64,000 nt of DNA from a virus, in the IMG/VR virus record IMGVR_UViG_3300033747_000022, positions 62,001 to 126,000 of that record; one strand, 5' to 3'. Shown here in pieces: positions 40,831 through 62,129 of the stretch; positions within the stretch are counted from its first letter, which is position 1; every line of letters starts with the position of its first letter. The notes beneath the pieces are model-generated. The model was not told the origin of the DNA. It worked only from the letters and a program-made list of their open reading frames with translations, and did no database searches. Made by a program: the position numbers and the translations under genes.

Positions 40831-42336
40831 ATGTCAAATAAATTTTTAGACGCAATGGAAGATAAAGTTAATTACACAGCAACAGAAAATGGTGCAACAG
40901 CAAAACATACAACTAAAGATAACCTACTCGATTTCTTTGCTCAGGTGGGAGCTTTAAGAAACAGGAATAAAGAAGATATTATAAGGCTTTTTGATAAGGC
41001 TTTAACAGAAGATGACCTTCTAGCAGTAAAAACTCTTTTTTATGCCAGAAATGTTAGGGGTGGGCTAGGAGAAAGAAGAATATTTAGAGTTATTTTAAAA
41101 TATCTGACACAGGTAAAGCCTGAGGTAGTTCTAAAAAACTTAGAACACATACCTCATTATGGTCGATGGGACGATTTATATGCCTTATTTGATACAAGAC
41201 TTGAAGGCTATGCAGCAAACTTTATGAAAGCCCAGTTCTTTAAGGATATCAATTCTGAAAAACCAAGCTTATTAGCAAAATGGCTTAAATCAGAAAATGC
41301 AAGCTCAGACGAAACAAAAAGACTTGCCAGAAAGACCAGAAAACATTTTGAGATGACCGCAAGAGGATATAGAAAAACACTTTCTAAGCTGAGAAAGAAA
41401 ATAGGTGTTGTCGAAAGAAAAATGTCTAATAATGACTGGGAAGATATTGACTACTCATCTGTTCCTTCAAGAGCACAAATGATTTACAATAATGCTTTTG
41501 AAAGACATGACCCTGAAGGCTACCATGAATATATTGAAAATGTTAAGTCTGGAGAGGACAAAATTAATGCCTCAACTTTATATCCTTATGATTTAGTAAG
41601 AAAAGTTATCGGTCATGGTTGGGGCCATTCAGTTTCTGAAAGTGAAAGAGATGTTTTAAATGAGCAGTGGAAAGCATTACCTGATTATATCAATGATAAA
41701 AATGAAAATTCTATTTGCGTTGTAGATACTTCAGGCTCTATGATGAGCTCAGATGGGTTGCCACTTCATATTGCCCTTTCATTAGGATTATATATGGCAG
41801 AAAGAAACTCAGGACCCTTTAAAGATAGGTTTATTACCTTCTCTGCCAGTCCTGATTTAGTAAAAGTAGAAGGCAGTGATTTTGTGCAGAAAATTAAGAA
41901 CATGAGAAGAGCTCACTGGGATATGAATACCGATATCGAAGCTGTATTTAATCTTATTTTAGATACTGCTATAGAAAATCATCTCCATCAGGATGAAATA
42001 CCTCAAAAGTTATACATTATTTCTGATATGGAATTTGACCAGTGTACAAATAATAGTTATGGACTTAGTTCTCGTAACAAAGTAACTAAAACACTTTTTG
42101 AAAAGTTAAAGGAATCATTCAAATATTATGGCTACAAAATGCCGGATTTAGTCTTCTGGAATGTTGAAGCAAGAAATGAAGTTTTTCAGTTTGACAAAGA
42201 CGAAAGAGGATTCCAGCTTGTAAGCGGAGCTTCTCCAGTTGTTTTTGAGCACACAATGAAGGGTGAGTTTGTTTCCGCCTACGACTTGATGCTCGATGTA
42301 ATCACAGACGAACAGTACGATAGAATTACAGTTTAA
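40831..42336 (+). CDS. Ro60-like RNA-binding protein (DUF2828/TROVE plus vWA)
   Basis: 501 residues. The N-terminal half is a helical-repeat ring of the DUF2828/TROVE type: FFAQVGALRNRNKEDIIRLFDKA, VKTLFYARNVRGGLGERRIF, VVLKNLEHIPHYGRWDDLYAL. The C-terminal half is a vWA domain with CVVDTSGSMM near 300 (DxSxS), WDMNTDIEAV near 370 and ISDMEFDQ near 399. Ro60 proteins hold tRNA-like Y RNAs and misfolded RNAs, and in many bacteria their genes sit beside rtcB. Here it directly follows the CAGCAA RNA elements, which are good candidates for its RNA partners. Confidence 0.78.
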   Translation: MSNKFLDAMEDKVNYTATENGATAKHTTKDNLLDFFAQVGALRNRNKEDIIRLFDKALTEDDLLAVKTLFYARNVRGGLGERRIFRVILKYLTQVKPEVVLKNLEHIPHYGRWDDLYALFDTRLEGYAANFMKAQFFKDINSEKPSLLAKWLKSENASSDETKRLARKTRKHFEMTARGYRKTLSKLRKKIGVVERKMSNNDWEDIDYSSVPSRAQMIYNNAFERHDPEGYHEYIENVKSGEDKINASTLYPYDLVRKVIGHGWGHSVSESERDVLNEQWKALPDYINDKNENSICVVDTSGSMMSSDGLPLHIALSLGLYMAERNSGPFKDRFITFSASPDLVKVEGSDFVQKIKNMRRAHWDMNTDIEAVFNLILDTAIENHLHQDEIPQKLYIISDMEFDQCTNNSYGLSSRNKVTKTLFEKLKESFKYYGYKMPDLVFWNVEARNEVFQFDKDERGFQLVSGASPVVFEHTMKGEFVSAYDLMLDVITDEQYDRITV

Positions 42337-42346
42337 TAAAATTACT

Positions 42347-42378
42347 AAGGCAGGCCTTAATCGGTCTGTCTTTTTTTT
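42347..42378 (+). terminator. intrinsic terminator after the Ro60-like gene
   Basis: The stem aaggcaggcc/ggtctgtctt (with wobble pairs) ends in eight T. Confidence 0.75.
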
Positions 42379-42393
42379 ATTGGGGTGAAAAAA

Positions 42394-42537
42394 ATGGATA
42401 AAGAGTTTAAGTATGCAAAAGTGCTGCCACAAGAGCTAGATAAGACAATATTTGGCTTTTACGTAGAAAAAAATAAAAAAATATTAGAAAAAGACTTGAA
42501 TAATGAAGTGAAGTGTAGTAAACTAAACTTAAGATAG
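42394..42537 (+). CDS. small unknown protein
   Basis: ATG 42394 after GGGGTG gives 47 residues (DKEFKYAKVLPQELDKTIFGFYVEK at its start, in parts). Its 3' end carries the promoter of the ligase operon. No family recognised. Confidence 0.45.
   Translation: MDKEFKYAKVLPQELDKTIFGFYVEKNKKILEKDLNNEVKCSKLNLR
42496..42524 (+). promoter_or_regulatory. probable promoter of the RNA ligase operon
   Basis: TTGAAT, 17 bases, TAAACT. Eleven of the first thirteen bases agree with the RNA-cluster promoter at 36902, and the AAACTTAA stretch after the -10 is shared too. Confidence 0.6.
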
Positions 42538-42553
42538 TAAATAGGAGGTTTTT

Positions 42554-42850
42554 ATGGAGTTAGGAGAAAAAATTAAATTTAAAGAATATCTAAAAAAGAA
42601 ACCTTATGTAAACTCTTATTACAGCAAAATCGACAAGGACACCGGGTATTTGAAGTATGACACTATAGAACTTGAAGAATTTAAAGAAGGCATATTTTGT
42701 GGCTATAGAACAATAGGTTATAGGGGCTATACCACACAAAATGATTATGGAATGGATTATAACCCTTTAGAAAATAAAAAAATTGCACTAATAGCATGTG
42801 ACACTCGTGGTTTTTATAGAGTAGATACAGAAAAAATAATAATGGAGTGA
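42554..42850 (+). CDS. unknown protein
   Basis: 98 residues, ATG after AGGAGG. Lys/Tyr-rich, beta-containing (CGYRTIGYRGYTT). It precedes the RNA ligase gene by 4 bases. No family recognised. Confidence 0.55.
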   Translation: MELGEKIKFKEYLKKKPYVNSYYSKIDKDTGYLKYDTIELEEFKEGIFCGYRTIGYRGYTTQNDYGMDYNPLENKKIALIACDTRGFYRVDTEKIIME

Positions 42851-42854
42851 TTTG

Positions 42855-43772
42855 ATGGATAAAGATAAGTTAGAGGAATTAAGAGAGTACAATAAAATTT
42901 ATATTTTAGGCAGTAGTAGCAATCAAGAGATTACAAATTACAAAGAAGATGAAATTGTAATTGAAGAAAAAATTGACGGCAGTAACTTTAGGTTCTGGAG
43001 AGAAGGAGACAGGATTGTATATAGTTCCAGAAAAGTTAAAGATGTCAGACCTCGTGATGGATGGGGCAAACAGATTGAATACCTAAATAAAAAGCTTGAT
43101 GTAAATGCTCTTGGCAGAGATATTATTTATGTCGGAGAGGCAATGAAAAAACACATAGTAAATTATGATTTTGATAATTATCCACCATTTATAGGGTTTG
43201 ACCTTCTGGATAAAGAAACTGGAATGCCACTTGATTATAAAGTCGCCAAAAAGACTTTTGAAAGTCTGGGTTTAGAATTTGTAAATATCTTATTTGAGGG
43301 AACAATGGAAGAATATCTTGGGATGGACAGAGATAAACTTTTAGAAATTTCTAAGTACAACTCAAAAAAGCCTGAAGGTTATGTTATTAAAAATTATAAC
43401 AGGTTAAGCCAATACAATGAGCCTCTATTTGCCAAAGTTTTAAATGATGAGTATTTGGAAAGACAAAAAGCTAAAGCTAAAAAGCCAAAGCCTAAAGAAA
43501 CAGACACTCCTTTAGCAGTTGAGCTTTATGTAAATGAGGCGAGAATTAAAAAGATGATAGCTAAAATGGTTGTTGATGAAGGACATAAACTTGAAAGAAC
43601 GCTAATGCATAAGCTTATCCCGAGAGTTATCAAGGATTTTTTAAGAGAAAATATTCTTGAAATCTATGAGGATAATAGAATAAAAGATGTAAACTTTAAT
43701 ATTCTACACAAAGAAGTTCCAAAAAGATGTATTAAAGTTTTGGATAAGATGATTGAAAGTAATGCATTCTAA
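42855..43772 (+). CDS. Rnl2-like RNA ligase
   Basis: Start chosen at ATG 42855 after GGAGTG. 305 residues. The nucleotidyl-transfer motifs are all present: EEKIDGSNFRFW (motif I, Lys is AMP-bound) near 38, YVGEAMK near 97, GFDLLDKETG (IIIa) near 115, PEGYVIKNY (IV) near 175 and LFAKVLNDEY (V) near 193. A helical C-terminal domain follows. Rnl2 enzymes seal 3'-OH and 5'-phosphate ends at nicks in RNA, often to repair cleaved tRNAs. Confidence 0.88.
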   Translation: MDKDKLEELREYNKIYILGSSSNQEITNYKEDEIVIEEKIDGSNFRFWREGDRIVYSSRKVKDVRPRDGWGKQIEYLNKKLDVNALGRDIIYVGEAMKKHIVNYDFDNYPPFIGFDLLDKETGMPLDYKVAKKTFESLGLEFVNILFEGTMEEYLGMDRDKLLEISKYNSKKPEGYVIKNYNRLSQYNEPLFAKVLNDEYLERQKAKAKKPKPKETDTPLAVELYVNEARIKKMIAKMVVDEGHKLERTLMHKLIPRVIKDFLRENILEIYEDNRIKDVNFNILHKEVPKRCIKVLDKMIESNAF

Positions 43773-43792
43773 AAATAAATAAGGAGGTTAAA

Positions 43793-44065
43793 ATGCCTGA
43801 TTATTTTAAAGAATATACAGCTGATTATAAAGGAAATAGTGAGTGGTACTGTCAAAAAGAAAAATGTATATCCTGTAAATTCAGCTACGGGCCCTTGAGT
43901 TTTAAGCAGGACTCAGTAATTAATTTAAGGTGCAAAAGGCCTACGGTAGATTGCGAGCATGAATTTTTAAACAAAATAGTCCTAAAGAAAATAGTAGATA
44001 AAAAGCGCGTTAAAAGCGACAATCCTTTAATGGTCAAATATCAATATGTTGTGGAGGAGGAATAA
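43793..44065 (+). CDS. Cys-rich unknown protein
   Basis: 90 residues, ATG after AGGAGG. Cys/His pattern CQKEKCISCKF, then RCKRPTVDCEHEF suggests one zinc site. It is in the ligase operon. Confidence 0.55.
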   Translation: MPDYFKEYTADYKGNSEWYCQKEKCISCKFSYGPLSFKQDSVINLRCKRPTVDCEHEFLNKIVLKKIVDKKRVKSDNPLMVKYQYVVEEE

Positions 44066-44082
44066 AAATCAGCTACAAAAAA

Positions 44083-44577
44083 ATGTGGTCTTACTTCAAG
44101 GAAGACCTAAAAGATGTAATCTCTTACAGTCACCGCTTTAAAAACAGCGACTATGATGCAAATGGGATTACAGAATCCGTTGCAAGAAGGTTAATGTTTC
44201 AAATGGATACTTATGAAAAACATATAGGTAAAAAAGCAGAAATTACAGACTATAGACTAAAAGGTTGGGACTGGGGTGAGCTCTGTGACAAATTTGGGCT
44301 TGAAGATTATGAAGTTCCAAAAGGTAATAGAGGTAATTATATGCATCTTAAAGTTGAAGGCACTTTAGAATATAACAAAGTGATTCATTATCTTGAAGAC
44401 AGATGGATGGAAGATAATGAGATAGTAGAGGTATTAAAAGGCCATTTAAGGTCTATGATACCTGATGAAGGGCCTTATACTCACTATGATGCAGTCTGGA
44501 ACGCTATGCTTGATATAAAAGACAATACGGTATTTATGCAGTTTGTATTTGCACTCTTAGGACACATGTGGACCTAA
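44083..44577 (+). CDS. unknown protein
   Basis: 164 residues from ATG 44083. The good ribosome site (GGAGGAGG) lies 23 bases upstream, next to an in-frame ATC, so the true start may be non-standard. Trp-rich (YRLKGWDWGELCDKFGL). No family recognised. Confidence 0.5.
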   Translation: MWSYFKEDLKDVISYSHRFKNSDYDANGITESVARRLMFQMDTYEKHIGKKAEITDYRLKGWDWGELCDKFGLEDYEVPKGNRGNYMHLKVEGTLEYNKVIHYLEDRWMEDNEIVEVLKGHLRSMIPDEGPYTHYDAVWNAMLDIKDNTVFMQFVFALLGHMWT

Positions 44578-44600
44578 AACTATAAATGGAGGAAATTAAA

Positions 44601-44960
44601 ATGGGATTAATAAAATCAAAACAATTTGCCAAAAGAGCTGACTACTGGGAAAGAAACGGGCTTAATGTAATTTACTCAGAAAAGTTTTATATTCTTAAAG
44701 GAAACAGAAAGAAAAGAAGATTAACTCAAAATAAATTTAATAAAATTAAAGCAGACTTTATAGAAAACATTAAAAACATGAAGGAAGTAAAAGAAGAAAA
44801 TACACAATCTCAATTTGATGATATATGCCAGCTTGAAACAAAGCTAGAAACCATAGTAGGACAATATATTGACTCATATGGAGACTTAATTGAGCAGGAC
44901 ATAGAACAAGACCCATCAACTATAAAACCTGTAAAACACGCCAAAAACAAACTTAAATAA
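44601..44960 (+). CDS. small basic protein
   Basis: Start chosen at ATG 44601 after GGAGG. 119 residues, basic N-terminal half (NRKKRRLTQNKFNKIKADF), acidic C-terminal half. No family recognised. Confidence 0.55.
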   Translation: MGLIKSKQFAKRADYWERNGLNVIYSEKFYILKGNRKKRRLTQNKFNKIKADFIENIKNMKEVKEENTQSQFDDICQLETKLETIVGQYIDSYGDLIEQDIEQDPSTIKPVKHAKNKLK

Positions 44961-44971
44961 GGAGAGTTCAA

Positions 44972-45178
44972 ATGGATATTATCTATATGATTTTAGGAGT
45001 TTACTTTCTTGGAGTGATTGTAAATAGCTTTATAGTTTTAGTTTTAATCGCAAACCACAAAAGAACTCATATCGTAACATCTGTTAGTGAGAGTTTTGAT
45101 TTTTTAAAGATGCTTAAGTTTGTATTTTTAAGCTGGTACTCATTTGATAAGGCAGTTGTTAAAGTTTTAAATAGTTAA
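44972..45178 (+). CDS. small membrane protein
   Basis: 68 residues, one long N-terminal membrane helix (IIYMILGVYFLGVIVNSFIV), then a cytoplasmic amphipathic part. ATG after AAGGAG. Confidence 0.5.
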   Translation: MDIIYMILGVYFLGVIVNSFIVLVLIANHKRTHIVTSVSESFDFLKMLKFVFLSWYSFDKAVVKVLNS

Positions 45179-45209
45179 AATAGTTAAAATAAATTAAAAG
45201 GAGTAAACT

Positions 45210-45683
45210 ATGAGTACTATTTTTTTAGATATAGATGGAGTTTTAAATTCAACTAAATCTATAGAAGAAAATTATCTTAAAGGAAACAAAGTTGATGCAG
45301 CTAAAATTTTTATACCTCAATCTGTATTTTTAATAAATATGCTTACAAGTGTAAAAAGTGCAGATGTAGTAATATCAAGTACGTGGCGTTACAACATGGA
45401 AAAGGTTATAAAAGTTTTTAAAAAAAACAATCTAAAAACAAGAAATATAGTTGGGAGAACTCCCTTTTTAGAATCTACAAGGGGTGCAGAAATCAAAAAG
45501 TATTTAAAGTCAAATAAAAATATAAAAGATTTTATAATAATTGACGACGATAAAGATATGGAGCCATTTTTAGATAAACTAGTACACATAAAAAGAGAAA
45601 CGGGTTTTGACAATCATGATTACGTTAAATCTTTAAAAATGTTAGGTGGTAAAAATGTACCAGAAAAAATGTCCAAAGTGTAA
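45210..45683 (+). CDS. HAD-family phosphatase of the RNA-repair type
   Basis: 157 residues. It opens with FLDIDGVLNS (DxDG), then VVISSTWRYN near 52, VGRTPFLESTRGAEIKKYL near 80 and FIIIDDDKDME near 107. This pattern (ISSTWR, GRTP...RG.EI, DDD) is that of HAD domains found in multi-domain 'Swiss army knife' RNA repair proteins. A role removing phosphates at RNA ends next to the Rnl2-like ligase is likely but inferred. Confidence 0.75.
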   Translation: MSTIFLDIDGVLNSTKSIEENYLKGNKVDAAKIFIPQSVFLINMLTSVKSADVVISSTWRYNMEKVIKVFKKNNLKTRNIVGRTPFLESTRGAEIKKYLKSNKNIKDFIIIDDDKDMEPFLDKLVHIKRETGFDNHDYVKSLKMLGGKNVPEKMSKV

Positions 45684-45777
45684 GAAATAAAGCCACTTGG
45701 CAAGTAAAGGTGGTAAGTGGATATGCCCTTACTGTAATGAGGATTTAACAGATATTGAAACAATAAAAAAGGGGTGA
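45655..45777 (+). pseudogene. zinc-ribbon gene with an in-frame UAA
   Basis: ATG 45655 after GGTGG reads MYQKKCPKCKK, then UAA at 45688-45690, then continues in the same frame SHLASKGGKWICPYCNEDL to UGA at 45775. The two CxxC knuckles (CPKC and CPYC) lie on either side of the stop, so the intact product needs read-through or the gene is broken by one base change. Confidence 0.55.
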
Positions 45778-45781
45778 AAAA

Positions 45782-46111
45782 ATGTTTTTAGCAAAAGGAG
45801 TTTATAGGGATTGTAATATAGATGACTTTATAAATGGAGAACTTCCAAACACAGGCTATTCAATTGGTTGGGATGTTGACTTTAAGGCAAAAACAAAAGA
45901 AGATTTATTTAAAAAAATAGCCAATTTTCACGATATAAAAATAGAAAATATTTATACTGAAGACGGAAGAATTTATATCCAAAAATATGAAATTCCAAAT
46001 CCAAGAGGTTGGAATGATGCCACAGAAGAAGATATGAGGTTATGGGAAAAAGGAAAAAAAGAATTATTTTTGGTTGATTATGTTTATGACTTATTTGAAA
46101 AAGTATCTTAA
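45782..46111 (+). CDS. unknown protein
   Basis: 109 residues, ATG after GGGGTG. Alpha/beta mix, acidic. No family recognised. The gap 46112-46222 has no gene. Confidence 0.55.
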   Translation: MFLAKGVYRDCNIDDFINGELPNTGYSIGWDVDFKAKTKEDLFKKIANFHDIKIENIYTEDGRIYIQKYEIPNPRGWNDATEEDMRLWEKGKKELFLVDYVYDLFEKVS

Positions 46112-46222
46112 TATAAAAATTACAAATAATAAAAGGGGGTGATTCCAATGCTCTTTAAATAAAGATAAAGCTATCATAATATATACTAAAAAATATAGCA
46201 AATATAATAGGAGGTAGAATTT

Positions 46223-47131
46223 GTGAAGCACGCCCAAGTAAGCCAGGAATTCCTACAGTCAGTATTTCAAAACAAGAAAATAAGCTCAAATGGCTACGAT
46301 TTAGAGGATGGATATTATCATATATATGCTTATGATAATTTGCAATCCCTATCTGTCGATTCAAAAAGTTATGATGGGTTTCCAGCATCAACTTATTTTT
46401 ATCCGGCAGGAGCAATAGTTTATTATAATAACGGAATGGTAGAAATTGTCGACCACAATATATCAATTAATGGTCAGACAGGAAATAACCCATATCAGTG
46501 GGCCACAATTGATGCTTTATTAAGAGACAATATTGAGCTTGTAATACTTACAGGAGTTGCTGGAAGTGGTAAGACTTTCTTGTCACTTGCGTATGCACTT
46601 TCAAAAGTAGAAAACAGTCAATACAACAAGATAGTTTTATCAAGACCTAAACAAACGCTAGAAAGAGATGAGGGGTTTCTCCCTGGTGGAGAAGATGACA
46701 AAATTATGCCATATATGATGCCATTTTATGATAATGCCCGTTCTATGGGAGCAAGTCAGGATTTTCAAAGAATGGTAAATAGAGGCGAAGATACATTCGG
46801 TATTACTTTTCAGCCTTTGGAAAAAATTAAAGGTAGAAGTTTTGAGAATACAATTGTTATTGTTGATGAGGCCGAAGACATGCGATATAGAGAAATAGAG
46901 TCTCTTTTAACAAGGCTTAACAATTCAAAGGTTATTATTTGCGGCGATATCAAGCAAATAGATGACAAAACATTTTCAAAAAACAACATACCTTTAACAT
47001 ATGCAATACAAAAATTTTATGGACAGGATTTTGTCGCTCATATAGATAATCCTATCACTTCTAGAAAAGGTAAAGTAACTCAATTTGTTATTAAAAACTT
47101 TTCTTATGAAGAGTATAAAAAAGCAAATTAA
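46223..47131 (+). CDS. PhoH-like ATPase
   Basis: Start GTG 46223 after GGAGG. 302 residues. N-terminal 90 residues are unlike PhoH and may bind a partner. The ATPase core follows: LTGVAGSGKTFLSL (Walker A) near 115, LSRPKQTLERDEGFLPG near 140, MPYMMPFYDN near 165, PLEKIKGRSFENTIVIVDEAEDM (Walker B) near 200 and VIICGDIKQID near 240. PhoH-like proteins couple ATP hydrolysis to RNA handling in many phages. Confidence 0.88.
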   Translation: MKHAQVSQEFLQSVFQNKKISSNGYDLEDGYYHIYAYDNLQSLSVDSKSYDGFPASTYFYPAGAIVYYNNGMVEIVDHNISINGQTGNNPYQWATIDALLRDNIELVILTGVAGSGKTFLSLAYALSKVENSQYNKIVLSRPKQTLERDEGFLPGGEDDKIMPYMMPFYDNARSMGASQDFQRMVNRGEDTFGITFQPLEKIKGRSFENTIVIVDEAEDMRYREIESLLTRLNNSKVIICGDIKQIDDKTFSKNNIPLTYAIQKFYGQDFVAHIDNPITSRKGKVTQFVIKNFSYEEYKKAN

Positions 47132-47181
47132 AACTTAGGGGCGGGTTAAACCGCTCCTTTTTAAAGTTAAGGAGGTTAAAA

Positions 47182-47523
47182 ATGCAAAAAATAAAAGTTT
47201 ATTATATTAAACATCCACCAGAAGATGACAGAGAGAGAGGAACTGAAGTTTGGCAAAGGTATTTAAGAATGACAACAGGTTATAGAGAAGAAAAAGAGAT
47301 TCCTTTAAAAAAAGATTACAGAAAAGTTTTAGAATTTGAGCTGGATAACGATATTCCCGAAAATACAATTTTAAATAAACTCTGGCATGATTGTCAGAAT
47401 TTAGACTATCATGAGAATGCAGTAAAGCATGACCGTTCAATGATGGTTGGTGACGTTATCCAAATAGATGAAAAAGTATTTACTGTTGCTAGTATAGGGT
47501 TTACTGAAACTGAATGGTATTAA
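47182..47523 (+). CDS. unknown protein
   Basis: 113 residues, ATG after AAGGAGG. Two halves: a charged start and a beta-rich end (MMVGDVIQIDEKVFTVASIGF) that looks like a YodL-like or SH3-like fold. No family certain. Confidence 0.55.
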   Translation: MQKIKVYYIKHPPEDDRERGTEVWQRYLRMTTGYREEKEIPLKKDYRKVLEFELDNDIPENTILNKLWHDCQNLDYHENAVKHDRSMMVGDVIQIDEKVFTVASIGFTETEWY

Positions 47524-47535
47524 GGGGGTGTTTAA

Positions 47536-47793
47536 ATGTTTACAGAATATGGTTCAGAAGATGATGAGGTTTTTATCACAACAACAGTTACCAGAATGGA
47601 AATAAGAAACGAATTTAAACAATATGGAGTGGAAAAAGTTCCTATGGAGCTTGTTGAAGAAGTCTTAGATGTTTACTGTATGGATAAGGATATTGACGGT
47701 TTACTTTCAGAAAAACCTATTGCTAGTTTAGGTCAGGTTATAAAAGAAGTCGCAGAATACTATAAAAAGGAAATTTCAGATGACGAAATTTAA
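47536..47793 (+). CDS. small acidic protein
   Basis: 85 residues, ATG after GGGGG. Helical, acidic. It overlaps the next gene by 14 bases. No family recognised. Confidence 0.5.
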   Translation: MFTEYGSEDDEVFITTTVTRMEIRNEFKQYGVEKVPMELVEEVLDVYCMDKDIDGLLSEKPIASLGQVIKEVAEYYKKEISDDEI

Positions 47794-48109
47794 TGAATAT
47801 ATAAAAGAAATAAGAGAGAAGAATAAATATGACCCTAGGCGTGACTTAGTAAAGGATTCAAAACTCTGGTATATACTCTTAAATATTGCCGAAAGAAAGG
47901 ATGAAAATCTATACAATATCTTACACGGTTTAAGATGTGTTGGAGCCAGACTTTTATATAAAAACAAAAAACTACAAATGGTACAGGGTAAAGAAATAGA
48001 AAATTCAAGTTGGGAGCAGTACAGGACAGACTGGCTTTTTCCATATGCAAAAAATGTAAAAGAAATTTTTAGTGATGCAGAAAGATACATTCAAAAATCC
48101 AAAAAATAA
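47780..48109 (+). CDS. unknown basic protein
   Basis: 109 residues, helical and basic (ILHGLRCVGARLLYKNKKLQM). Overlap suggests translational coupling with the preceding gene. No family recognised. Confidence 0.5.
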   Translation: MTKFNEYIKEIREKNKYDPRRDLVKDSKLWYILLNIAERKDENLYNILHGLRCVGARLLYKNKKLQMVQGKEIENSSWEQYRTDWLFPYAKNVKEIFSDAERYIQKSKK

Positions 48110-48132
48110 TTTAAAGGGAGAGATTTTTTATT

Positions 48133-48486: not shown

Positions 48487-48495
48487 TTTAAAAAA

Positions 48496-54199: not shown

Positions 54200-54967
54200 T
54201 TGAATGAAATAACTAATACAGAACAGTACAATAACTCGATGTCAAAAAGTGTCTTAGATAAGATGTTTTTCTTAGATAAGATACCGGACGATGTCGTTAT
54301 TGTAGATTGGGGTTGTGCTGACGGCTCTTTACTAAAAGAAGTTATGCGTTTTTTTCCTGATAATAAATATGTCGGCTATGATATAGATGAAAAGATGGCC
54401 GAAAAAGCAAGAGAGAACACAAATGCAAAAATTTTTTTCAATTTCACAAGAATGTTTAAATTTCTAAATGAAAATTACAAGAAAGAAAAAATAGTTATTA
54501 ATTTATCTTCTGTTGTTCATGAAGTTTACTCTTATAGAAATGTGGAAGAAATTGATGATTTTTGGGCAACAGTATTTGCACTAGCAGATATTGTTGTTAT
54601 TCGTGACATGATATTTGAACAGAGTATGGACCGGGCGAGCAATCCTAATGATGTTAAGAAGATACGCTCTAAATCAGATAGAAGATACCTTCAGGATTAT
54701 GAGTCAATTGAAGGTTCTATTAAAAATAATAAGAATCTTATTCACTACCTGATGAAATATCGTTATAAAGATAACTGGGAGCGTGAAGTAAGGGAGAACT
54801 ACTTTCCTCTATCACGGGAAAGGCTTGATATGTTGATTCCAGACAACTTCATGATTCGCTATGAAACTATGTTTGCCCTGCCCTACACTCAAAGGGTTGT
54901 AGAGCGGGACTTTGGTATCGAAATCAAAGATAATACACATTTAAAAATGATTTTAGAAAAAATATAA
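54200..54967 (+). CDS. class I SAM-dependent methyltransferase-like protein
   Basis: Start TTG 54200 after AGGAGG. 255 residues. The SAM site is VVIVDWGCADGSLLKEV near 32 and VGYDIDEKMAEKAREN near 55; NLSSVVHEVYSY near 98 fits the next conserved strand. The substrate is not evident; small-molecule or protein/RNA methylation are all possible. Confidence 0.75.
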   Translation: MNEITNTEQYNNSMSKSVLDKMFFLDKIPDDVVIVDWGCADGSLLKEVMRFFPDNKYVGYDIDEKMAEKARENTNAKIFFNFTRMFKFLNENYKKEKIVINLSSVVHEVYSYRNVEEIDDFWATVFALADIVVIRDMIFEQSMDRASNPNDVKKIRSKSDRRYLQDYESIEGSIKNNKNLIHYLMKYRYKDNWEREVRENYFPLSRERLDMLIPDNFMIRYETMFALPYTQRVVERDFGIEIKDNTHLKMILEKI

Positions 54968-54981
54968 AAGGGTGAGATAAT

Positions 54982-56316
54982 ATGCTGGACCTTATATCAG
55001 AAGAAGAATTAAATAAAAAGCGCAGCTATAAAGATATAGATAAGGACAATGGAGAGAGGTTAAGAGAGCTTATCGAGGATAAATTTTTAAATCAGATTGA
55101 ATTAGCTGAGTATTTTAATTGTTGCACTGATACTATTAGACAAAAAATAAAAAAGTACAATTTAAATTATAGGAAAAAATCAAACAAGCAGTTTAAATAT
55201 GAAGTAAATAAATTAGTTGGTGATGAATACACTGTTTTGGGAGAATATATTAATTCTGATATTAAAATAAAAATTAAACATAATAAATGTGGGAATATAT
55301 ATAACACAAAACCAATAAACTTTTTAAAGGGACGTAGATGTCCTAAATGTTGTTGGAATGCTCAAAAAACAACAAATAAATTTAAAAAAGAAGTTTATAA
55401 ATTAGTTGGTGATGAATACACTGTTTTGGGAGAATATATTAATTCTGATATTAAAATAAAAATGAAACACAATAAATGTGGCTATTTATATACTATTGAG
55501 CCAACTAATTTTTTGCAAGGGACAAGATGCGCTAAATGTGCTGGAAACGCTAAAAAAACAACAGAAGAATTTAAAAAAGAAGTTTATGAATTAGTTGGTG
55601 GTGAATACACTGTTTTAGGAGAATATAATAATTGTCAAACTGAAATAAAAATTAAACATAATGAATGTGGGCATATATATAAAATAAAACCCTCTAGTTT
55701 TTTAATAGGAACAATATGCCCTAAATGTCGTTGGAATGGAAGAAAAACAACAGAAGAATTTAAAAAAGAAGTTTATGAATTAGTTGGTGATGAATATACT
55801 GTTTTAGGAGAATATGCTAGTAATAAAACTAAAATTAAAATGAGACATAATAAATGTGGACATATATATAAAGTAAAACCACAAAAATTTTTACAAGGAA
55901 GTAGGTGTCCAATTTGTAGTTTAGCTTCTAAATCAGAATTAAAAATATTTAATTGGTTAAATGATAAAAATTATAATTTTAAATATAATTATACTAATCA
56001 TAAATGCGAAGACAAAAGAAAATTAAGATTTGATTTTTATTTGGATAATTTAATAATAGAATATGACGGTTTACAACATTTTAAAAAAGAAGATTTTTTT
56101 AGAACCAATTTAAAAATTAGAAGAAGAAGAGACAACATCAAAAACCAGTACTGTAAAGAAAACGATATAAGGTTAATACGCATTCCCTACTGGCAGAAAG
56201 ACAATATAGAAAATATTTTAGAATCAATCTTTATAAATGAGGAGTTAAATCAAAGATGGTCATTAAAAGAATACTGGTCAGAAAATAAGGATATTGATTA
56301 TTTAGTTGTATGTTAA
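54982..56316 (+). CDS. Vsr-like (EDxHD) homing endonuclease with four tandem zinc-repeat modules
   Basis: 444 residues. Residues about 20-65 form a helix-turn-helix. Then four repeats of about 58 residues follow, each with VYELVGDEYTVLGEY, IKHNKCGHIY and a CPKC-type knuckle after FLxG, spaced as zinc-binding DNA-reading modules. The nuclease is at the end: LRFDFYLDN, IEYDGLQHFK, KNQYCKENDIRLIRIPYWQKDNI, which has the family's Asp, Glu, Asp-x-His and Asp positions. It is a larger paralogue of the enzymes at 8660 and 14313. The base composition of the repeats is more AT-rich than its surroundings. Confidence 0.82.
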   Translation: MLDLISEEELNKKRSYKDIDKDNGERLRELIEDKFLNQIELAEYFNCCTDTIRQKIKKYNLNYRKKSNKQFKYEVNKLVGDEYTVLGEYINSDIKIKIKHNKCGNIYNTKPINFLKGRRCPKCCWNAQKTTNKFKKEVYKLVGDEYTVLGEYINSDIKIKMKHNKCGYLYTIEPTNFLQGTRCAKCAGNAKKTTEEFKKEVYELVGGEYTVLGEYNNCQTEIKIKHNECGHIYKIKPSSFLIGTICPKCRWNGRKTTEEFKKEVYELVGDEYTVLGEYASNKTKIKMRHNKCGHIYKVKPQKFLQGSRCPICSLASKSELKIFNWLNDKNYNFKYNYTNHKCEDKRKLRFDFYLDNLIIEYDGLQHFKKEDFFRTNLKIRRRRDNIKNQYCKENDIRLIRIPYWQKDNIENILESIFINEELNQRWSLKEYWSENKDIDYLVVC

Positions 56317-56335
56317 AGATAAAAGGGGGTAAAAA

Positions 56336-56554
56336 ATGAATAACAACTCAAAAATAATGGAAAAGTTGGCAGGAGAAATTGCTATTACAAATCCAGATGA
56401 ATATTCTGATAAAGCCATAAATTTATACAAATCAATGGATTCAAAAGAGCAAAAAGCGGTAGATAATTTTATTATGGAATATGCTGGTGTCAGTCTTGAT
56501 TTTTATCTTAAAGAAGAAGATAAAAGATTGTGGGGTTCAGGTGATAAAAAATGA
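56336..56554 (+). CDS. small acidic helical protein
   Basis: 72 residues, ATG after AAGGGGG. No family recognised. It overlaps the next gene by 4 bases. Confidence 0.5.
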   Translation: MNNNSKIMEKLAGEIAITNPDEYSDKAINLYKSMDSKEQKAVDNFIMEYAGVSLDFYLKEEDKRLWGSGDKK

Positions 56555-57180
56555 GAAAAGTAGTACATGGATGGTTGGTTAATTTCACTGACGATAACGG
56601 TGACCAACAAACTCTTGAATACTGTGATAAAGAATATATGATGGCACACCTTTCTAATGATATAGAAAATTCATCAATGCCAGAAAATGTTTTTATTATA
56701 CCTCCAGGAGAAGCTATTAAGGCAATTGATTTTTTAAAAAGAGAAAGAAAAAAAGAAAATTACTTTAAAAAAAGGTATCAGAATATATTAGGAAATTATG
56801 TAATTGGTTTAGAAAAATTCCCTATTAAATTTGATATTGGTGATTTACACCAATCTGATTATGCAGTAACAGGGGATTTTGCAGATTACCAGGGAGTTTT
56901 AAGTCTTAAAAATGGTGGCTATATAGAAGTATGGGCTGCTTTAGAGTATAAAGAACATGAATCAGGTGCTACAGGCGCATTCTTAAATAGTATAATTTTT
57001 GAAGACAATCAACAAAATATATACTATGAAAACGAAAACTTAATGTCAGCTTTTATGCTACAAAAATTATGGTTTTTTGTTAAAGATGTAGTTGATGTTA
57101 TTTTCGATGAAGATGAACTCTTGAACGAAAACGAAAGAGAAATTTATTATAGCTTTGGCTTTTGTCCTAGACTTAAATAA
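56551..57180 (+). CDS. unknown protein
   Basis: 209 residues, 4-base overlap with the previous stop. Alpha/beta mix with a beta-rich middle (LSLKNGGYIEVWAALEYKEH). No family recognised. Confidence 0.55.
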   Translation: MRKVVHGWLVNFTDDNGDQQTLEYCDKEYMMAHLSNDIENSSMPENVFIIPPGEAIKAIDFLKRERKKENYFKKRYQNILGNYVIGLEKFPIKFDIGDLHQSDYAVTGDFADYQGVLSLKNGGYIEVWAALEYKEHESGATGAFLNSIIFEDNQQNIYYENENLMSAFMLQKLWFFVKDVVDVIFDEDELLNENEREIYYSFGFCPRLK

Positions 57181-57200
57181 AAAAATAGGAGGAATAAATT

Positions 57201-57647
57201 ATGAAAATGGAAAGAAGTAATTATGCTGATGGTGTTCTGATAGAAAAGACAGACTTAAGAGAGTTCTTAGAGAATAACGAAAGTGAAAGATGGGAGATTT
57301 ATAATGTCGATGATATGCCAGACAGTTATTATTTAAAATTAGAATCAGGAGTTATTGAAGCTGACAAGCTAAAAACTAAATCAACATTTTTAACAAAGCA
57401 TAACGCAACCTCAACTGCAAATCATATTATGGATAAACTTAATATGAAAAAGAATGAGGATACACTTTATTTTGTTGACAGACCGGCTTACCTTTTAATA
57501 GGTGAAAAATTAGAGCTAATCAGAAGTATAAAATATAAAAATCTAGCTTTTAACCCAGTTAGAGATGTTGAAAGTTTTAAAATTGCAATTGAATGTTTAG
57601 CTGACTCTAAATATGAACATTTCTTAGATGTAAGTGAGGGACTATAA
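57201..57647 (+). CDS. unknown protein
   Basis: 148 residues, ATG after AGGAGG. Acidic, alpha/beta. No family recognised. It begins a run of similarly sized, mostly acidic genes that continues to rtcB. Confidence 0.55.
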   Translation: MKMERSNYADGVLIEKTDLREFLENNESERWEIYNVDDMPDSYYLKLESGVIEADKLKTKSTFLTKHNATSTANHIMDKLNMKKNEDTLYFVDRPAYLLIGEKLELIRSIKYKNLAFNPVRDVESFKIAIECLADSKYEHFLDVSEGL

Positions 57648-57658
57648 GGAGGTGTCAA

Positions 57659-58285
57659 ATGAAAAATAAAAAAGAAAAGTTTGAGTTTGGGAGTGTATCA
57701 GGAACCTGTGATACAAGTCTAGAAGATTTTATTTTAGTCGAAGATGCTGATTACCACAAAAGTTATATTTCAAAAAAGGTCTATCAGCACAGAGAACCCG
57801 ACCTTAATTTTGATTATAGGTATGTACTACACGGAAGTTTTTGGGAAGGCTACCTTATTAAAGAGATTTTTGGCATTGACCCTTATGATTTTGAAGACCA
57901 ACCTTTAAGTATTGATATCTATATGGTTCCTACTTTGGACAGCCTTTCAGATGAAACCATATCTGATATTATGAGCGCTTACGGCTGGGAGGGTGAATGG
58001 AAGAATTTCGAAACAGACTTCATTGAATATATAATCGTTGAGACCGGATACGGAATGCGAATGGATGGCTCTGAAGACTTAATCAGATACGAGGATATGG
58101 ATGAAGAGTTCTTCAATGCAGCAAATGCTATAACAGCTATTGATGGATTATTTGGGTTTTATATGGACCAGGTTGTAAATGGTATCGGGACAACCAACTG
58201 GGATTTATTACAGGAACGACTAGAAATAATTGATAATGCCTTTTCTGTATCATTAGATAGAGCCGCTAAAACTATAAATGCTTAA
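57659..58285 (+). CDS. unknown acidic protein
   Basis: 208 residues, ATG after AGGAGGTG. Very acidic and Tyr-rich (YMVPTLDSLSDETISDIMSAYGWEGEW). No family recognised. Confidence 0.55.
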   Translation: MKNKKEKFEFGSVSGTCDTSLEDFILVEDADYHKSYISKKVYQHREPDLNFDYRYVLHGSFWEGYLIKEIFGIDPYDFEDQPLSIDIYMVPTLDSLSDETISDIMSAYGWEGEWKNFETDFIEYIIVETGYGMRMDGSEDLIRYEDMDEEFFNAANAITAIDGLFGFYMDQVVNGIGTTNWDLLQERLEIIDNAFSVSLDRAAKTINA

Positions 58286-58299
58286 AGGAGGTGAATTAG

Positions 58300-58572
58300 A
58301 TGGCTGCAGGACCAAAACGTTTAATTGAATACTATATTGAAACCTTAGAAAATCAAAAAGAATCAATAAAAGAATTAAATACAGGTCTGGAATATGCTCC
58401 GGGCTGGTCAGTAATGCATGACATGGACAGCTGGTTTGATATCAAAGAAAGTATTGAAAAAATAGATAAGGAAATCAGGGAAGCTCTTCAAATTTTAAAT
58501 TACGAGTTGCCACAATACGAAGATAAAACTTATGAAGAAATGGCAGATGAAAAGTACGGGACACCAAAATAA
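58300..58572 (+). CDS. small acidic helical protein
   Basis: 90 residues, ATG after AAAGGAGGTG. Helical, acidic, ends EEMADEKYGTPK. No family recognised. Confidence 0.55.
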   Translation: MAAGPKRLIEYYIETLENQKESIKELNTGLEYAPGWSVMHDMDSWFDIKESIEKIDKEIREALQILNYELPQYEDKTYEEMADEKYGTPK

Positions 58573-58587
58573 AAGGAGGTTTTTAAT

Positions 58588-59106
58588 TTGATTAAATTTA
58601 AAGAATATAATTTTGATGTTATAACAGGCAGAGAACAGGAAATGCTAGATGACTTTGTAGATATGGAAGGGATAAGCGAAACTGATTATATCGGCGATGC
58701 TATTGCAGAATACGGGGACAGATATGCAGATGTTTACTGGGAAAAAGGAAAAGAGCTGCAGGGTTATGTTAAAGAAGCAATGAGAAACGGTTTAGTTGAT
58801 ATGTCTCAGCCTTTTACTGATTTAGATGATGCCTTTTTTAGTGGATGCTCTTTATATCTAACAGATGTTTTATATGACAATTTATACCAGCTTGTTTTTA
58901 ATATAGCTGCTGATTATATCAATAAAGATTTGGATATCCACCCAAAAATAAAGAGATTTATTAATGATAATCAGAAAATGGTTGAAGATAAACTTGAAAT
59001 GGAATTAGACCACATCGACAATAACAGTCGCTTTGAAAGAATAATTATTGCTGCCGATAATTTATTAGAAGAATACCACTCATCTGGAGAACTTGCTGGT
59101 TATTAA
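58588..59106 (+). CDS. unknown acidic protein
   Basis: Start TTG 58588 after AGGAGG. 172 residues, acidic and helical. It shares a helical, acidic character with the next two proteins (EYGDRYADVYWEKGK), which may be distant relatives. No family recognised. Confidence 0.55.
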   Translation: MIKFKEYNFDVITGREQEMLDDFVDMEGISETDYIGDAIAEYGDRYADVYWEKGKELQGYVKEAMRNGLVDMSQPFTDLDDAFFSGCSLYLTDVLYDNLYQLVFNIAADYINKDLDIHPKIKRFINDNQKMVEDKLEMELDHIDNNSRFERIIIAADNLLEEYHSSGELAGY

Positions 59107-59126
59107 TATTTAAAAGGAGGGTTACA

Positions 59127-59660
59127 ATGGACTTTAAAAAAGAATTAGAACTTTTAAGGTGGCTGGCCCAGGGGGTCAGCTTAAAAAAGGGAGAATTTTC
59201 TAAAGGGCTTACTTTCGACAATATAAATAGCTCAATTGCTGATTATATCAATCATTACTATAGTATTGGTGCTAAATCTGAAACGAGAGAGTGGGAATGT
59301 TCTAAAGTAAAAACAACACAGCATGATGAAAAAATATATTTAGATATTCCATCTGACCATTATGGTGCCTATGAAAAAAGTTATTTCATGCCTTTAAGAG
59401 AATTTATTTATGATTATCATGAAAGAATAATTGAGGATATTATGGAAGAAAACAATCTTTTTCAGGAAAAATACTATGAAATGCTTGAAGATGGAATTTT
59501 AGATGATGAAATTGACCTACAGGAACCATATGAACTATATTTAATCGAAAAATTTGCCAGTGACTACATTGACTATCTAACAGAGTGGGGCGATATTCAT
59601 ATCCTGATTGAACAAAAAAGAAAAATCAAATCAGGGTGGATGAATTATTTTAAGGAGTGA
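59127..59660 (+). CDS. unknown acidic protein
   Basis: 177 residues, ATG after AAAGGAGG. Acidic, aromatic-rich (YDYHERIIEDIMEENNLFQEKYY). No family recognised. Confidence 0.55.
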   Translation: MDFKKELELLRWLAQGVSLKKGEFSKGLTFDNINSSIADYINHYYSIGAKSETREWECSKVKTTQHDEKIYLDIPSDHYGAYEKSYFMPLREFIYDYHERIIEDIMEENNLFQEKYYEMLEDGILDDEIDLQEPYELYLIEKFASDYIDYLTEWGDIHILIEQKRKIKSGWMNYFKE

Positions 59661-59664
59661 TTTG

Positions 59665-60138
59665 ATGCTTGACTATAATAAAAAAGCAAGGGAAAAAATC
59701 AAAGAAAAAATAAATTACTTTGACGATGAAGAAGAAAAAATAATTGACTGTATGTTAATTGATTACGGACATCAGTTTTTAGATGAAATAAGCCAGTATG
59801 CAAAAGAAACTACCTGGATGGCTGACACCGAATCAGTAATGAAAGAGGATATAATAAACGACGAAATAGATGGTTTAGATGACCTAATTGCTACCTTCGA
59901 AGATGGTTGGCAGGAAACAGATAATTTTAGATTTAAAGTTTGCCTTCCAATTTATAATAAAGTATCAGACGCAGCAAATCAGGTACTTCCAGATAATATT
60001 GACTCAGAATATAAATCACTTACCATTTCTGAAATGACATTCGAAATAATTAAGGAAATTTTCTGGGAGCCATATCATAAGTATCATAATAGTTATGAAA
60101 TAGGAAGAAAATTATTAAAGGAGAGTTTAACTAAATGA
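59665..60138 (+). CDS. unknown acidic protein
   Basis: Start chosen at ATG 59665 after AAGGAGTG. 157 residues, helical, acidic. It overlaps the next gene by 4 bases. Confidence 0.55.
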   Translation: MLDYNKKAREKIKEKINYFDDEEEKIIDCMLIDYGHQFLDEISQYAKETTWMADTESVMKEDIINDEIDGLDDLIATFEDGWQETDNFRFKVCLPIYNKVSDAANQVLPDNIDSEYKSLTISEMTFEIIKEIFWEPYHKYHNSYEIGRKLLKESLTK

Positions 60139-60491
60139 TTGAATATAAGAACCGAGAATATTGCAAAGATGTTGAGTGTGACATACAGGATTTAATTGAT
60201 AATGGTAACGGGACAGAATTGAGCAAAGAACTATCTAAGGTTTTCGCTAAACCGTTTTGTAAAAATCAATGTGAAGCCTATAAATTCCACAAGTGGCTTC
60301 AAGAGCATGATTACAAAATAGTAAAAGCTAAAATTGTAAGCGAACATGAAGAAATGGACAAAGAGTTTGAGGGCATATCAGAAATGATAGAGTTTACACC
60401 AGAAGATTCAAGTAAACAGGTATTAAATGAGTTGCTAAATGATATTAAGGATATAGCAGATACTAATTATGGCAAATGGAGGGATGTATAA
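60135..60491 (+). CDS. unknown protein with Cys pair; intact parent of the 33580 fragment
   Basis: 118 residues. KPFCKNQCEAYKFHKWLQE is followed by an acidic helical tail (MDKEFEGISEMIEF, DIADTNYGKW). The tail is nearly duplicated in the truncated copy at 33580-33804. Function unknown. Confidence 0.55.
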   Translation: MIEYKNREYCKDVECDIQDLIDNGNGTELSKELSKVFAKPFCKNQCEAYKFHKWLQEHDYKIVKAKIVSEHEEMDKEFEGISEMIEFTPEDSSKQVLNELLNDIKDIADTNYGKWRDV

Positions 60492-60492
60492 A

Positions 60493-60873
60493 ATGAAAAC
60501 CAAAAAGTTTGATGATATATTTTACAGAGATAAACTTGCTGATGAGATAGCAAATTCTAGAATTGAAATGAGCGGAGATGACCATGAAGAAGGTTCAAAT
60601 TTATGGGGTGTAGAAATTCTTGTTGACGGAGCTTTGGGACAGTTTAAAACACAGGCTCTACTTGATATTTTCACAGAAGAAGGACTGACAGAAGAAGAAT
60701 ATAAAAAAGACACCTTTAAATACATGGACGAGTGGACTTTATATATCAGACAGGATGTTGAAGAAATGCTCAATGAAGAAATGTCTGAACACTTAGAAGA
60801 AGAGGAGTTTCTTGTTTTAGAACCGGGAGATTCAGGAGATATGTGGATAGCATTACAGAAAGGTGATTTTTAA
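60493..60873 (+). CDS. unknown acidic protein
   Basis: Start chosen at ATG 60493 after GGAGGG. 126 residues, very acidic. Its stop codon overlaps the ATG of rtcB by one base, so its translation is coupled to RtcB. Confidence 0.55.
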   Translation: MKTKKFDDIFYRDKLADEIANSRIEMSGDDHEEGSNLWGVEILVDGALGQFKTQALLDIFTEEGLTEEEYKKDTFKYMDEWTLYIRQDVEEMLNEEMSEHLEEEEFLVLEPGDSGDMWIALQKGDF

Positions 60874-62129
60874 TGTACACTTTTAATGGTTTATATACAG
60901 GCTTGCCTGTTAAAGTCTGGATTGATGAAAGTGAAGATTTAGATGATAACACATTTAAAGAAGCAGTAGAAATATCAAAGCTCCCATACGCTAAATCACA
61001 CATAGCATTGATGCCTGATGTACACGCTACGGGCTACCATATGCCAGTTGGCGGGGTTTTAGCTACAAAGGATGTTATAGTACCTGATGCAGTCTCGAAC
61101 GATATAGGGTGCGGTGTCGCCTTTATACAGACAGATATTGAGGCCTGCTTTATGCAAACAACACACATGGATTCAGGAACAGTTGCTCAGGAACTGGTTG
61201 GGTCAATTATGAGAGATTTACCAACAGGATTTCAGCACTGCAAAAAAGAAGAAAACAAAGATAACATGGAGCTTCTAAATCTAATTAATAATTTAAACTA
61301 TGGTGGAGATATTGAAGAAAAACCTCTTTTAATGGAAGCTGTCATGGAGTCTATGGAAATTGTTGGAAGTCTAGGAGGTGGCAACCACTTCGTTGAGCTA
61401 CAGGAAAACAAAGAGGGTAATCTTGCAATTATGATTCACACCGGCTCCAGAAGTGTTGGCGCTAAAATAAACTCTCATTTTAGTAAGTTAGCAAAAAGTT
61501 TAAATAAAAAATGGTATGTTGATGTTTTATCTGATGATGTAACAATGCCCTTTTTACCACTCGATAGTGATGAGGGTCAGGAATATATGAAATTCATGAA
61601 TTTTGCCTTAAAAGTTGCTGAGTTAAATAGAGATAAAATTATGGATTTAGTTCTAAATAAGACTATTGATTTACTTAAAAAAAGAGGTCTTATTGATAAT
61701 TATAAAATTACAAGAAGATTAAATGTCCACCACAATTATGCTGCCTATGAAAATGTGAACGGTGTTAACTACATGGTGCATAGGAAAGGAGCTGTGCGGG
61801 CCAGAGGTACAGATATGGTGCCTATTCCAGGAGCAATGGGTTCATCTTCCTTTATTGCTCAGGGTCTTGGGAATGATGCTTCATTCAAGTCCTGCAGCCA
61901 TGGAGCCGGGAGAACTCACACCAGAACTGCAGCCAAAGAAGAATATTCAGTGCAAGAGGTTATGGAAGATTTAAAAGAAAAGAATGTTGTACTTGGTAAA
62001 ACTAATAAAAAAGATGTTGCAGAAGAATACATGAAGGCATATAAAGACATTCATCAGGTTATGGAAAATCAAAAAGATTTAGTATCCGTGATTGATGAAC
62101 TAAAAACTATTGCAGTTATTAAAGGTTAG
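60873..62129 (+). CDS. rtcB: RtcB 3'-phosphate RNA ligase
   Basis: 418 residues. All catalytic motifs are present: LMPDVHATGYHMPVGGV near 46, SNDIGCGVAF (metal-binding Cys) near 75, LGGGNHFVELQ near 170, MIHTGSRSVGAK near 192, VHHNYAAYE near 286, VHRKGAVRARG near 303, GAMGSSSF near 320 and CSHGAGRTHTR (guanylylated His) near 341. RtcB joins RNA 2',3'-cyclic-phosphate or 3'-phosphate ends to 5'-OH ends and is the tRNA-splicing ligase of archaea and animals. In a phage with interrupted tRNAs it is the prime candidate for joining their exons; repair of nuclease-cut tRNAs is the alternative. Confidence 0.95.
   Translation: MYTFNGLYTGLPVKVWIDESEDLDDNTFKEAVEISKLPYAKSHIALMPDVHATGYHMPVGGVLATKDVIVPDAVSNDIGCGVAFIQTDIEACFMQTTHMDSGTVAQELVGSIMRDLPTGFQHCKKEENKDNMELLNLINNLNYGGDIEEKPLLMEAVMESMEIVGSLGGGNHFVELQENKEGNLAIMIHTGSRSVGAKINSHFSKLAKSLNKKWYVDVLSDDVTMPFLPLDSDEGQEYMKFMNFALKVAELNRDKIMDLVLNKTIDLLKKRGLIDNYKITRRLNVHHNYAAYENVNGVNYMVHRKGAVRARGTDMVPIPGAMGSSSFIAQGLGNDASFKSCSHGAGRTHTRTAAKEEYSVQEVMEDLKEKNVVLGKTNKKDVAEEYMKAYKDIHQVMENQKDLVSVIDELKTIAVIKG

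Follow-up and report, generated by a model that had tools for sequence, protein, structure and literature searches.

What does a virus gain from tRNA genes that are interrupted by small hairpins, and which of the RNA-repair genes in their surroundings, if any, serves them? The question is raised by a 64,000-nt stretch of viral DNA (hereafter the window; IMG/VR record IMGVR_UViG_3300033747_000022, record positions 62,001-126,000, one strand, 5' to 3'), in which a cluster of RNAs sharing the motif ACAGCAA lies beside a gene for a Ro60-like protein. An earlier interpretation made from the letters of the window (the sequence-only reading) had assigned these RNAs to an integrated tRNA maturation and repair system made up of the Ro60-like protein, an RNA ligase, a HAD phosphatase and RtcB, with a macrodomain gene on the same strand, and had cast RtcB as the ligase that seals the exons of the interrupted tRNAs. 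Our comparisons show the Ro60-like gene to be strongly and generally linked to the interrupted tRNAs across many unrelated viral and cellular contigs. They did not bear out RtcB as the enzyme that joins the exons.

The window contains at least nine ACAGCAA RNAs: four free hairpins and five chimeras with tRNAs (Table 1). All five interrupted tRNAs hold, within an insert of about 45-50 nt, a hairpin followed by (A)ACAGCAA, and the first base of ACAGCAA varies in two of the four free hairpins. The interrupted tRNAs are real, as had been claimed, since four were found as Rfam tRNA matches with inserts (37252-37363, 37592-37710, 37723-37837 and 40481-40608) and the fifth (37849-37971) was called by ARAGORN in intron mode. 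When the whole window was scanned with Rfam, only tRNA and int-alpA were found at threshold. The scan of the RNA cluster returned tRNA, YrlA and chance-level matches only, with no group I or group II intron and no known ribozyme; these classes were therefore rejected as the identity of the elements.

Further element loci, many in number, were gathered by scanning IMG/VR for tRNA T arms preceded by AACAGCAA. Three forms were found: hairpins, inserts of about 45 nt in tRNA anticodon stems and circularly permuted tRNAs, in which the tRNA 3' half is followed by a linker and the 5' half and the whole is closed by a stem. The consensus runs from an exon through an A-rich segment (often AAAAU), a stem of 7-9 bp that we call P1, the sequence UAACAGCAA and 8 to 14 nt to the next exon. 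Inserts were mostly at tRNA positions 27-33 and not at 37/38; most of them interrupt the 5' side of the anticodon stem, between 27 and 31. The tRNA portion ranged from a complete tRNA, through a tRNA without its acceptor stem (as in L112, where only the D, anticodon and T arms are present), to an anticodon arm alone.

A valid anticodon arm (5-bp stem, 7-nt loop, U33 and a purine at position 37) was restored by removal of the element in 61 of 116 cases, compared to about 5% when the 3' segment was shuffled. The effect was seen with the insert type (26/55 versus 33/550 shuffled) and with the permuted type (35/61 versus 24/610), and ARAGORN called 58 of the 61 restored products tRNAs with the same anticodon. 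P1 was examined in elements picked by their tRNA exons, with pairing ignored, by re-pairing leaders and trailers in 5000 permutations. In the permuted set, own leader and trailer scored 17.6, whereas re-paired ones scored 9.9 ± 0.55 and never more than 12.2 in the 5000 permutations; in the insert set, the scores were 14.1 and 9.0 ± 0.53. P1 is a real, covarying stem and is followed by UAACAGCAA. The reversed pattern had no match in 49 element-bearing records, which, together with the covariation of P1, led us to reject the elements as chance repeats. Anticodon-like arms were also present in elements lacking a T arm, in 29/113 (26%) and 31/132 (23%) of them versus 5.2% and 2.7% after shuffling. 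Candidate trans-split tRNA halves in L017 and L025 were set aside, as on inspection they look like permuted genes with the 5' half downstream. UGAUAA often stands between a trailer and the next leader in element arrays (L133, L037 and similar), possibly as a processing site. A tRNA-Arg(tcg) with a 905-nt intron holding a homing-endonuclease-like reading frame was called in L024 (reverse complement, 9567-8585), a phage with in-frame TAG codons and a TAG-reading tRNA.

The link to the Ro60-like gene was approached from both the RNA and the protein. Starting from the RNA, DUF7788, one of the two Pfam domains of the window's Ro60-like protein, was found in 34 of the 49 element-bearing viral records but in only 5 of 30 tRNA-bearing control records, a conservative control because at least one of these (L042) itself holds an element. 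Of the 33 records in which both were mapped, 20 had the gene on the element's strand within ~3.3 kb. Starting from the protein, 78 non-redundant viral loci were picked by the Ro60-like protein only. ACAGCAA occurred within 3 kb of the gene on the gene strand at 68 loci versus 21 on the other strand, and the 1 kb upstream of the gene held 90 copies on the gene strand versus 2 on the other. In 80 bacterial or archaeal contigs, likewise picked by protein alone, the corresponding counts were 165 and 3, making ACAGCAA the most strand-biased of all 7-mers. Isolated phages also carry the pairing: Bacillus FADO, vB_BcoS-136, Listeria A511, E. coli EC6, Mycobacterium LeBron, Campylobacter PC14, Staphylococcus 6ec and Fusobacterium Fnu1. 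Beside the gene of Aeromonas Ah1 no element was apparent, nor was a paired one in Vibrio ValKK3. That the gene and the interrupted tRNAs belong together is a part of the sequence-only reading that was supported.

Several of these phage loci have features of their own. In E. coli phage EC6, 3.2 kb without annotated genes (L322:4874-8139) contain about 18 tRNAs and four ACAGCAA elements, one of which is a permuted tRNA-like RNA, and the phage would be convenient for laboratory work. In mycobacteriophage LeBron, the gene for the 'Ro-like RNA binding protein' is closely followed by a permuted tRNA-like element with CAGCAAU (L321:4961-5200). In Listeria phage A511 (L159:6504-7055), a ROOL RNA (87.5 bits, just below the threshold of 99.1; E 3e-16) is found between the tRNAs and the Ro60-like gene.

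The label 'Ro60-like' was upheld by predicted fold. The protein consists of helical repeats and a vWA domain with the MIDAS motif DTSGSM. DUF2828 and DUF7788 were present in all 25 members of its alignment; the TROVE domain was absent from all of them even at E <= 10, and a single, weak vWA_Ro60 match was obtained (E 0.098). An AlphaFold2 model built with the 25 relatives aligned had a pLDDT of 87. A Foldseek search of the PDB with this model gave ten matches at E <= 1e-3, every one a Ro60/TROVE structure with a TM-score of about 0.5-0.6; the best were 9kop, 1yvr, 9l5y, 1yvp and 2i91 (E 3e-7 to 4e-5). The model therefore describes a protein that is Ro60-like at the level of fold, with a helical-repeat ring and a vWA domain. 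A search of BFVD added just relatives of the protein, some from giant viruses: DUF2828/DUF7788 proteins predicted to fold in the same way are found in Pithovirus LCPAC304, Cafeteria roenbergensis virus and marseille- and mimiviruses.

The RNA-repair genes fared differently from the Ro60-like gene. All five genes named by the sequence-only reading are present as open frames on the + strand and pass the curated Pfam cut-offs. The motifs DIGCG, GGGNH, HTGSR and HGAGR of RtcB are intact, the RNA ligase carries KIDG and EGYV, and Pfam describes HAD_SAK_2 as 'HAD domain in Swiss Army Knife RNA repair proteins'. The set was said to lie next to the interrupted tRNAs, which is true in that it falls within 22 kb, but RtcB is 18.5 kb from the Ro60-like gene and not adjacent to it. 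Nor was the set found as a unit elsewhere. At 80 other viral Ro60-like loci, no close relative of RtcB, of the window ligase or of the window HAD protein was found within 8 kb, and a macrodomain relative was found within that distance at 5 of the 80. Co-occurrence of the interrupted tRNAs with rtcB across phages, proposed at the time as a check, was seen in only 4 of the 49 element records, and the 45 without RtcB include records of 402, 332 and 307 kb. Scanning viral contigs with the RtcB protein gave one related record, which is without elements. Adjacency of RtcB and a Ro60-like gene is exceptional in phages, with Listeria phage A511 as the case found; RtcB lies within 6 kb of the Ro60-like gene at 38 of the 80 cellular loci. 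At the cellular loci (for example L252:328-2641, from the L241-L320 set; Clostridia, Ruminococcus, Butyrivibrio, Synergistetes and others), a WYL-domain regulator, a second WCX/WYL-like regulator, the DUF2828 Ro60-like gene and RtcB often follow one another as an operon, with ACAGCAA RNAs upstream.

RtcB therefore cannot be the general joiner of phage elements unless it is supplied by the host. Despite its intact motifs in the window and its cellular and A511 adjacencies, we rejected it as the dedicated exon joiner on co-occurrence, and we regard a co-evolved 22-kb repair set built around it as very improbable. An RNA-repair setting in a looser sense does fit, given the cellular RtcB neighbors and the RNA ligases that adjoin some viral Ro60-like genes. 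The RNA_ligase family was found in 25/49 element records (E <= 1e-3) versus 7/30 controls, and RNA_lig_T4_1 in 5/49. Four element records (G028, G030, G033 and G038; 87-148 kb) matched none of RtcB, PF09414 and PF09511. They come close to the phages with interrupted tRNAs but no ligase that the sequence-only reading had named as its own refutation, although these records are possibly incomplete and the host could supply a ligase.

We lean, by a modest degree, toward the explanation that the elements belong to a phage particle of the Ro60/Y RNA type, in which RNAs carry or display tRNA anticodon arms in a decoy, holding or maturation role. The protein of this particle would be the DUF2828 and DUF7788 Ro60-like protein and its RNAs the ACAGCAA elements. 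The protein may grip P1 and the ACAGCAA loop as Ro60 grips a Y RNA, so that P1 would act as a handle by which the element holds or displays the attached tRNA or anticodon arm. The most likely use would be as tRNA mimics that occupy anticodon-arm enzymes, such as host anticodon nucleases during infection, while nearby RNA ligases could repair cleaved tRNAs and RtcB would be an optional accessory. The reduction of the tRNA part, in some elements, to a lone anticodon arm favors mimicry, as do the anticodon-like arms of elements lacking a T arm and the likeness of permuted members to YrlA, which stays under the YrlA threshold. The anticodons of split tRNAs duplicated an intact tRNA of their own locus in 16 of 32 cases, compared to 11.3 expected, a weak excess (about P 0.02). 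Such duplication suits mimics better than it suits missing isoacceptors, and split tRNAs as a source of the latter were not supported. Several points weigh against the particle. The likeness to PDB entries is one of fold only (TM about 0.55), and the protein shares no sequence similarity with the Ro60 chains solved so far. In 15 of the 49 element records, some of which are small fragments, no Ro60-like gene was found, and the duplication excess just described is slight. Chimeras of the insert type keep acceptor ends and an encoded CCA, neither of which a decoy needs and both of which a spliced tRNA does. Finally, every functional step of the particle model is one that we infer, and the nuclease targeted by a decoy is hypothetical.

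Another possible explanation, clearly less probable in our judgment, is that the elements are very small introns. They would be excised in cis from tRNA genes, a ligase of the phage or host would seal the exons, and the Ro60-like protein would serve as the splicing platform; in permuted genes, the same reaction would close an RNA circle, later opened by RNase P and 3' processing. This would account for the encoded CCA ends and for the restoration, upon exact removal, of canonical anticodon arms far above chance in products that read as tRNAs. The insert and permuted forms also share their boundaries, with AAAAU before P1 and UAACAGCAA after it, and L163 has an uninterrupted tRNA that matches the spliced product of L043 at 91% identity over 69 nt. 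The enrichment of the RNA_ligase family agrees with splicing too, but no ligase family is universal among the element records. Elements with only an anticodon arm, or without an acceptor such as that of L112, cannot yield a tRNA, and the anticodons restored are not ones that the phage lacks. Moreover, the same anticodon arm can arise in unspliced RNA by pairing across a three-way junction, so restoration of the arm alone does not prove splicing. Tentative still is the fuller proposal of an undescribed tRNA-splicing system of phages and some bacteria, with introns of ~45 nt built on a Y-RNA-like stem and UAACAGCAA, which would act in cis, in permuted genes (where circles form) and perhaps also in trans on a Ro60-like platform. 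An improbable third account would be RNA quality control: the element would serve as a tether between the Ro60-like protein and an exonuclease, and the tRNA parts would be no more than folding modules. It draws on the Ro60 fold, on the Y-RNA-like terminal stem, on permuted members that resemble YrlA (below threshold) and on the precedent of Deinococcus, where a Y RNA tethers Rsr to PNPase (PMC7790460), but it leaves the retention of anticodon arms with U33 and purine 37 unexplained. Under both the mimic and the splicing explanations, the Ro60-like protein is the likely partner of the RNAs, as judged from the association of their genes.

Table 1. RNA elements and protein-coding genes of the window (window coordinates; P1 as leader/trailer, position of the motif in brackets)
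Feature	Position	Strand	Evidence	Sequence features
tRNA with anticodon-arm insert	37252-37366	+	Rfam tRNA, 43.7 bits; anticodon uncertain	P1 AUGUCUU/AAGGUAU, then UUAACAGCAA; ACAGCAA at 37307
tRNA with insert	37592-37711	+	Rfam, 44.3 bits; ARAGORN intron mode, Asp(gtc)	P1 GUGACUA/UAGUCAC, then CAACAGCAA (37655); removal of 46 nt gives Asp GUC
tRNA with insert, encoded CCA	37723-37840	+	Rfam, 47.4 bits	P1 AUGCUUAG/UUAAGCGU, then UAACAGCAA (37779); removal of insert gives GCUCC-UUGAGGA-GGAGC
tRNA with insert, encoded CCA	37849-37971	+	ARAGORN intron mode	P1 AUGUUUA/UAAACAU, then UAACAGCAA (37906); removal of insert gives Phe GAA
Y-like hairpin RNA	38009-38086	+	Sequence and fold	AAGACGGC-ACACAGCAACC ... 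GCCGUCUU
Y-like hairpin RNA	40409-40472	+	Sequence and fold	AAGGCGCCA-ACAGCAA ... UGGUGCCUU; anticodon-arm-like hairpin UCAAA-CUUCCAA-UUUGA
tRNA with insert, encoded CCA	40481-40611	+	Rfam, 43.6 bits	Hairpin GGGC..GCCC, then UUACAGCAA (40543); anticodon-like loop AUGUAAA in 3' part (Tyr GUA, by eye)
Y-like hairpin RNA, motif variant	40657-40722	+	Sequence and fold	AAGACAG-AUGCAGCAACC ... CUGUCUU
Y-like hairpin RNA	40747-40803	+	Sequence and fold	UUAGGCACA-AUCAGCAACC ... UGUGCCUAG; GGA-CUGUAAA-UCC (Tyr GUA loop); ends about 28 nt before Ro60-like gene
Macrodomain protein	30407-30844	+	Pfam, E 7e-14	
Ro60-like protein, 501 aa	40831-42336	+	Pfam DUF2828 (E 3e-41) and DUF7788 (E 7e-48), 25-member alignment	
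ATP-dependent RNA ligase	42852/42855-43772 (ATG at 42855)	+	Pfam RNA_ligase, E 6e-20, 72.6 bits	
HAD_SAK_2 phosphatase domain protein	45210-45683	+	Pfam, E 3e-24, 86.5 bits (cut-off 27.5)	
RtcB ligase	60873-62129	+	Pfam, E 2e-91, 308 bits	

The RNA cluster also includes two structured non-coding stretches with no Rfam match, at 36930-37155 and 37370-37590. The former has tRNA-Leu-like pieces (GGUGGCGGAAUAAGUAGACGC ... UGCCGGCUCCA), which fail to form an acceptor stem with each other. An IS605-type TnpB gene, of the RNA-guided nuclease family, is located within the cluster (38191-39321), and blastn of the cluster against phages matched mainly TnpB and NeuB-region genes, not the RNAs. The int-alpA RNA (RF02996) is at 15049-15112 on the - strand, with 44.7 bits, over threshold.

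The function of Ro60 and its Y RNAs is a long-standing question, and the permuted-tRNA appearance of bacterial Y RNAs is unexplained. The pairing described here is widespread, with hundreds of phage and bacterial cases, and visible in sequence, its RNAs have real anticodon arms, and it occurs in phages of such widely used laboratory hosts as B. subtilis, E. coli and M. smegmatis. Two ideas can thereby be put to a direct test. One is that anticodon arms of tRNAs are what Ro/Y particles act on or imitate; the other derives the tRNA-like Y RNAs from tRNA genes that were permuted or interrupted. Should the splicing explanation prove correct, the elements would form a new class of minute introns and, to our knowledge, provide the first permuted tRNA genes in phages. 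The finding also implies that programs for finding tRNAs overlook or mis-call many tRNA-like genes of phages.

In archaea and eukaryotes, tRNA introns have a bulge-helix-bulge at the exon-intron boundary, usually at 37/38. Archaea and algae have permuted, split and intron-containing tRNA genes (reviewed in PMC3400036) that share topologies with the elements, namely an insert in the anticodon region or a 3' half placed before the 5' half. The elements differ from those tRNA introns in the position of their inserts, in the Y-like stem common to them and in their link to a Ro60-like gene. A literature search, which did not reach the primary YrlA papers, found no report of permuted or split tRNAs in phages. 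The RNA ligase, HAD phosphatase and RtcB of the window resemble the tRNA-repair enzymes known from phages (T4 Pnkp/Rnl1, Rnl2 and RtcB). The ligases are not consistently linked to the elements. Among phage Ro proteins, that of Thermus phage phiLo (PDB 9l5y) is also of the Ro60 type but has no sequence match to the DUF2828 profile, and the 'Ro-like RNA binding protein' of mycobacteriophage LeBron is DUF2828-like, with elements downstream. The literature search found no such RNA partner described for the phiLo or mycobacteriophage Ro proteins. The available part of a survey of jumbo phages reports Ro/TROVE proteins in a few of them, and ligases too, and does not mention element-like RNAs (PMC7824862).

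The closest known kind is the bacterial Ro60 (Rsr) with its YrlA Y RNAs. Chen et al. (2014) reportedly described Y RNAs with a tRNA-like domain next to the Ro60 genes of more than 250 bacterial and phage species. In bacteria, as in the rsr-yrlBA-rtcBA operon of Salmonella, a tRNA-like Y RNA is encoded beside Ro60, often with RtcB as well (PMC7790460). Our system resembles this one in its Ro60-fold protein, in the RNAs encoded beside the gene and, in cellular copies, in the RtcB neighbor. As in YrlA, a stem formed by the RNA's own ends closes a permuted tRNA-like module (T arm, closed acceptor and D arm); this module was seen in relatives, while the window's five tRNA chimeras are inserts and not permuted. 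The elements differ from YrlA, whose Rfam consensus has no anticodon loop, in having ACAGCAA by the stem and real anticodon arms and in also residing inside tRNA genes. It has been proposed that YrlA may competitively inhibit an anticodon nuclease (PMC7790460), an idea to which the elements are a better fit, since they have true anticodon arms. Scores against YrlA (RF02553) were 24.7 bits in the window and 45.9 and 33.2 bits for the best relatives, all under the curated threshold of 69, and the elements were accordingly rejected as YrlA members. Since the RNAs are not YrlA by score and the protein, with DUF2828/DUF7788 in place of a TROVE match, is not TROVE by sequence, the two are best regarded as a pair related to Ro60 and YrlA and not as a member of that family.

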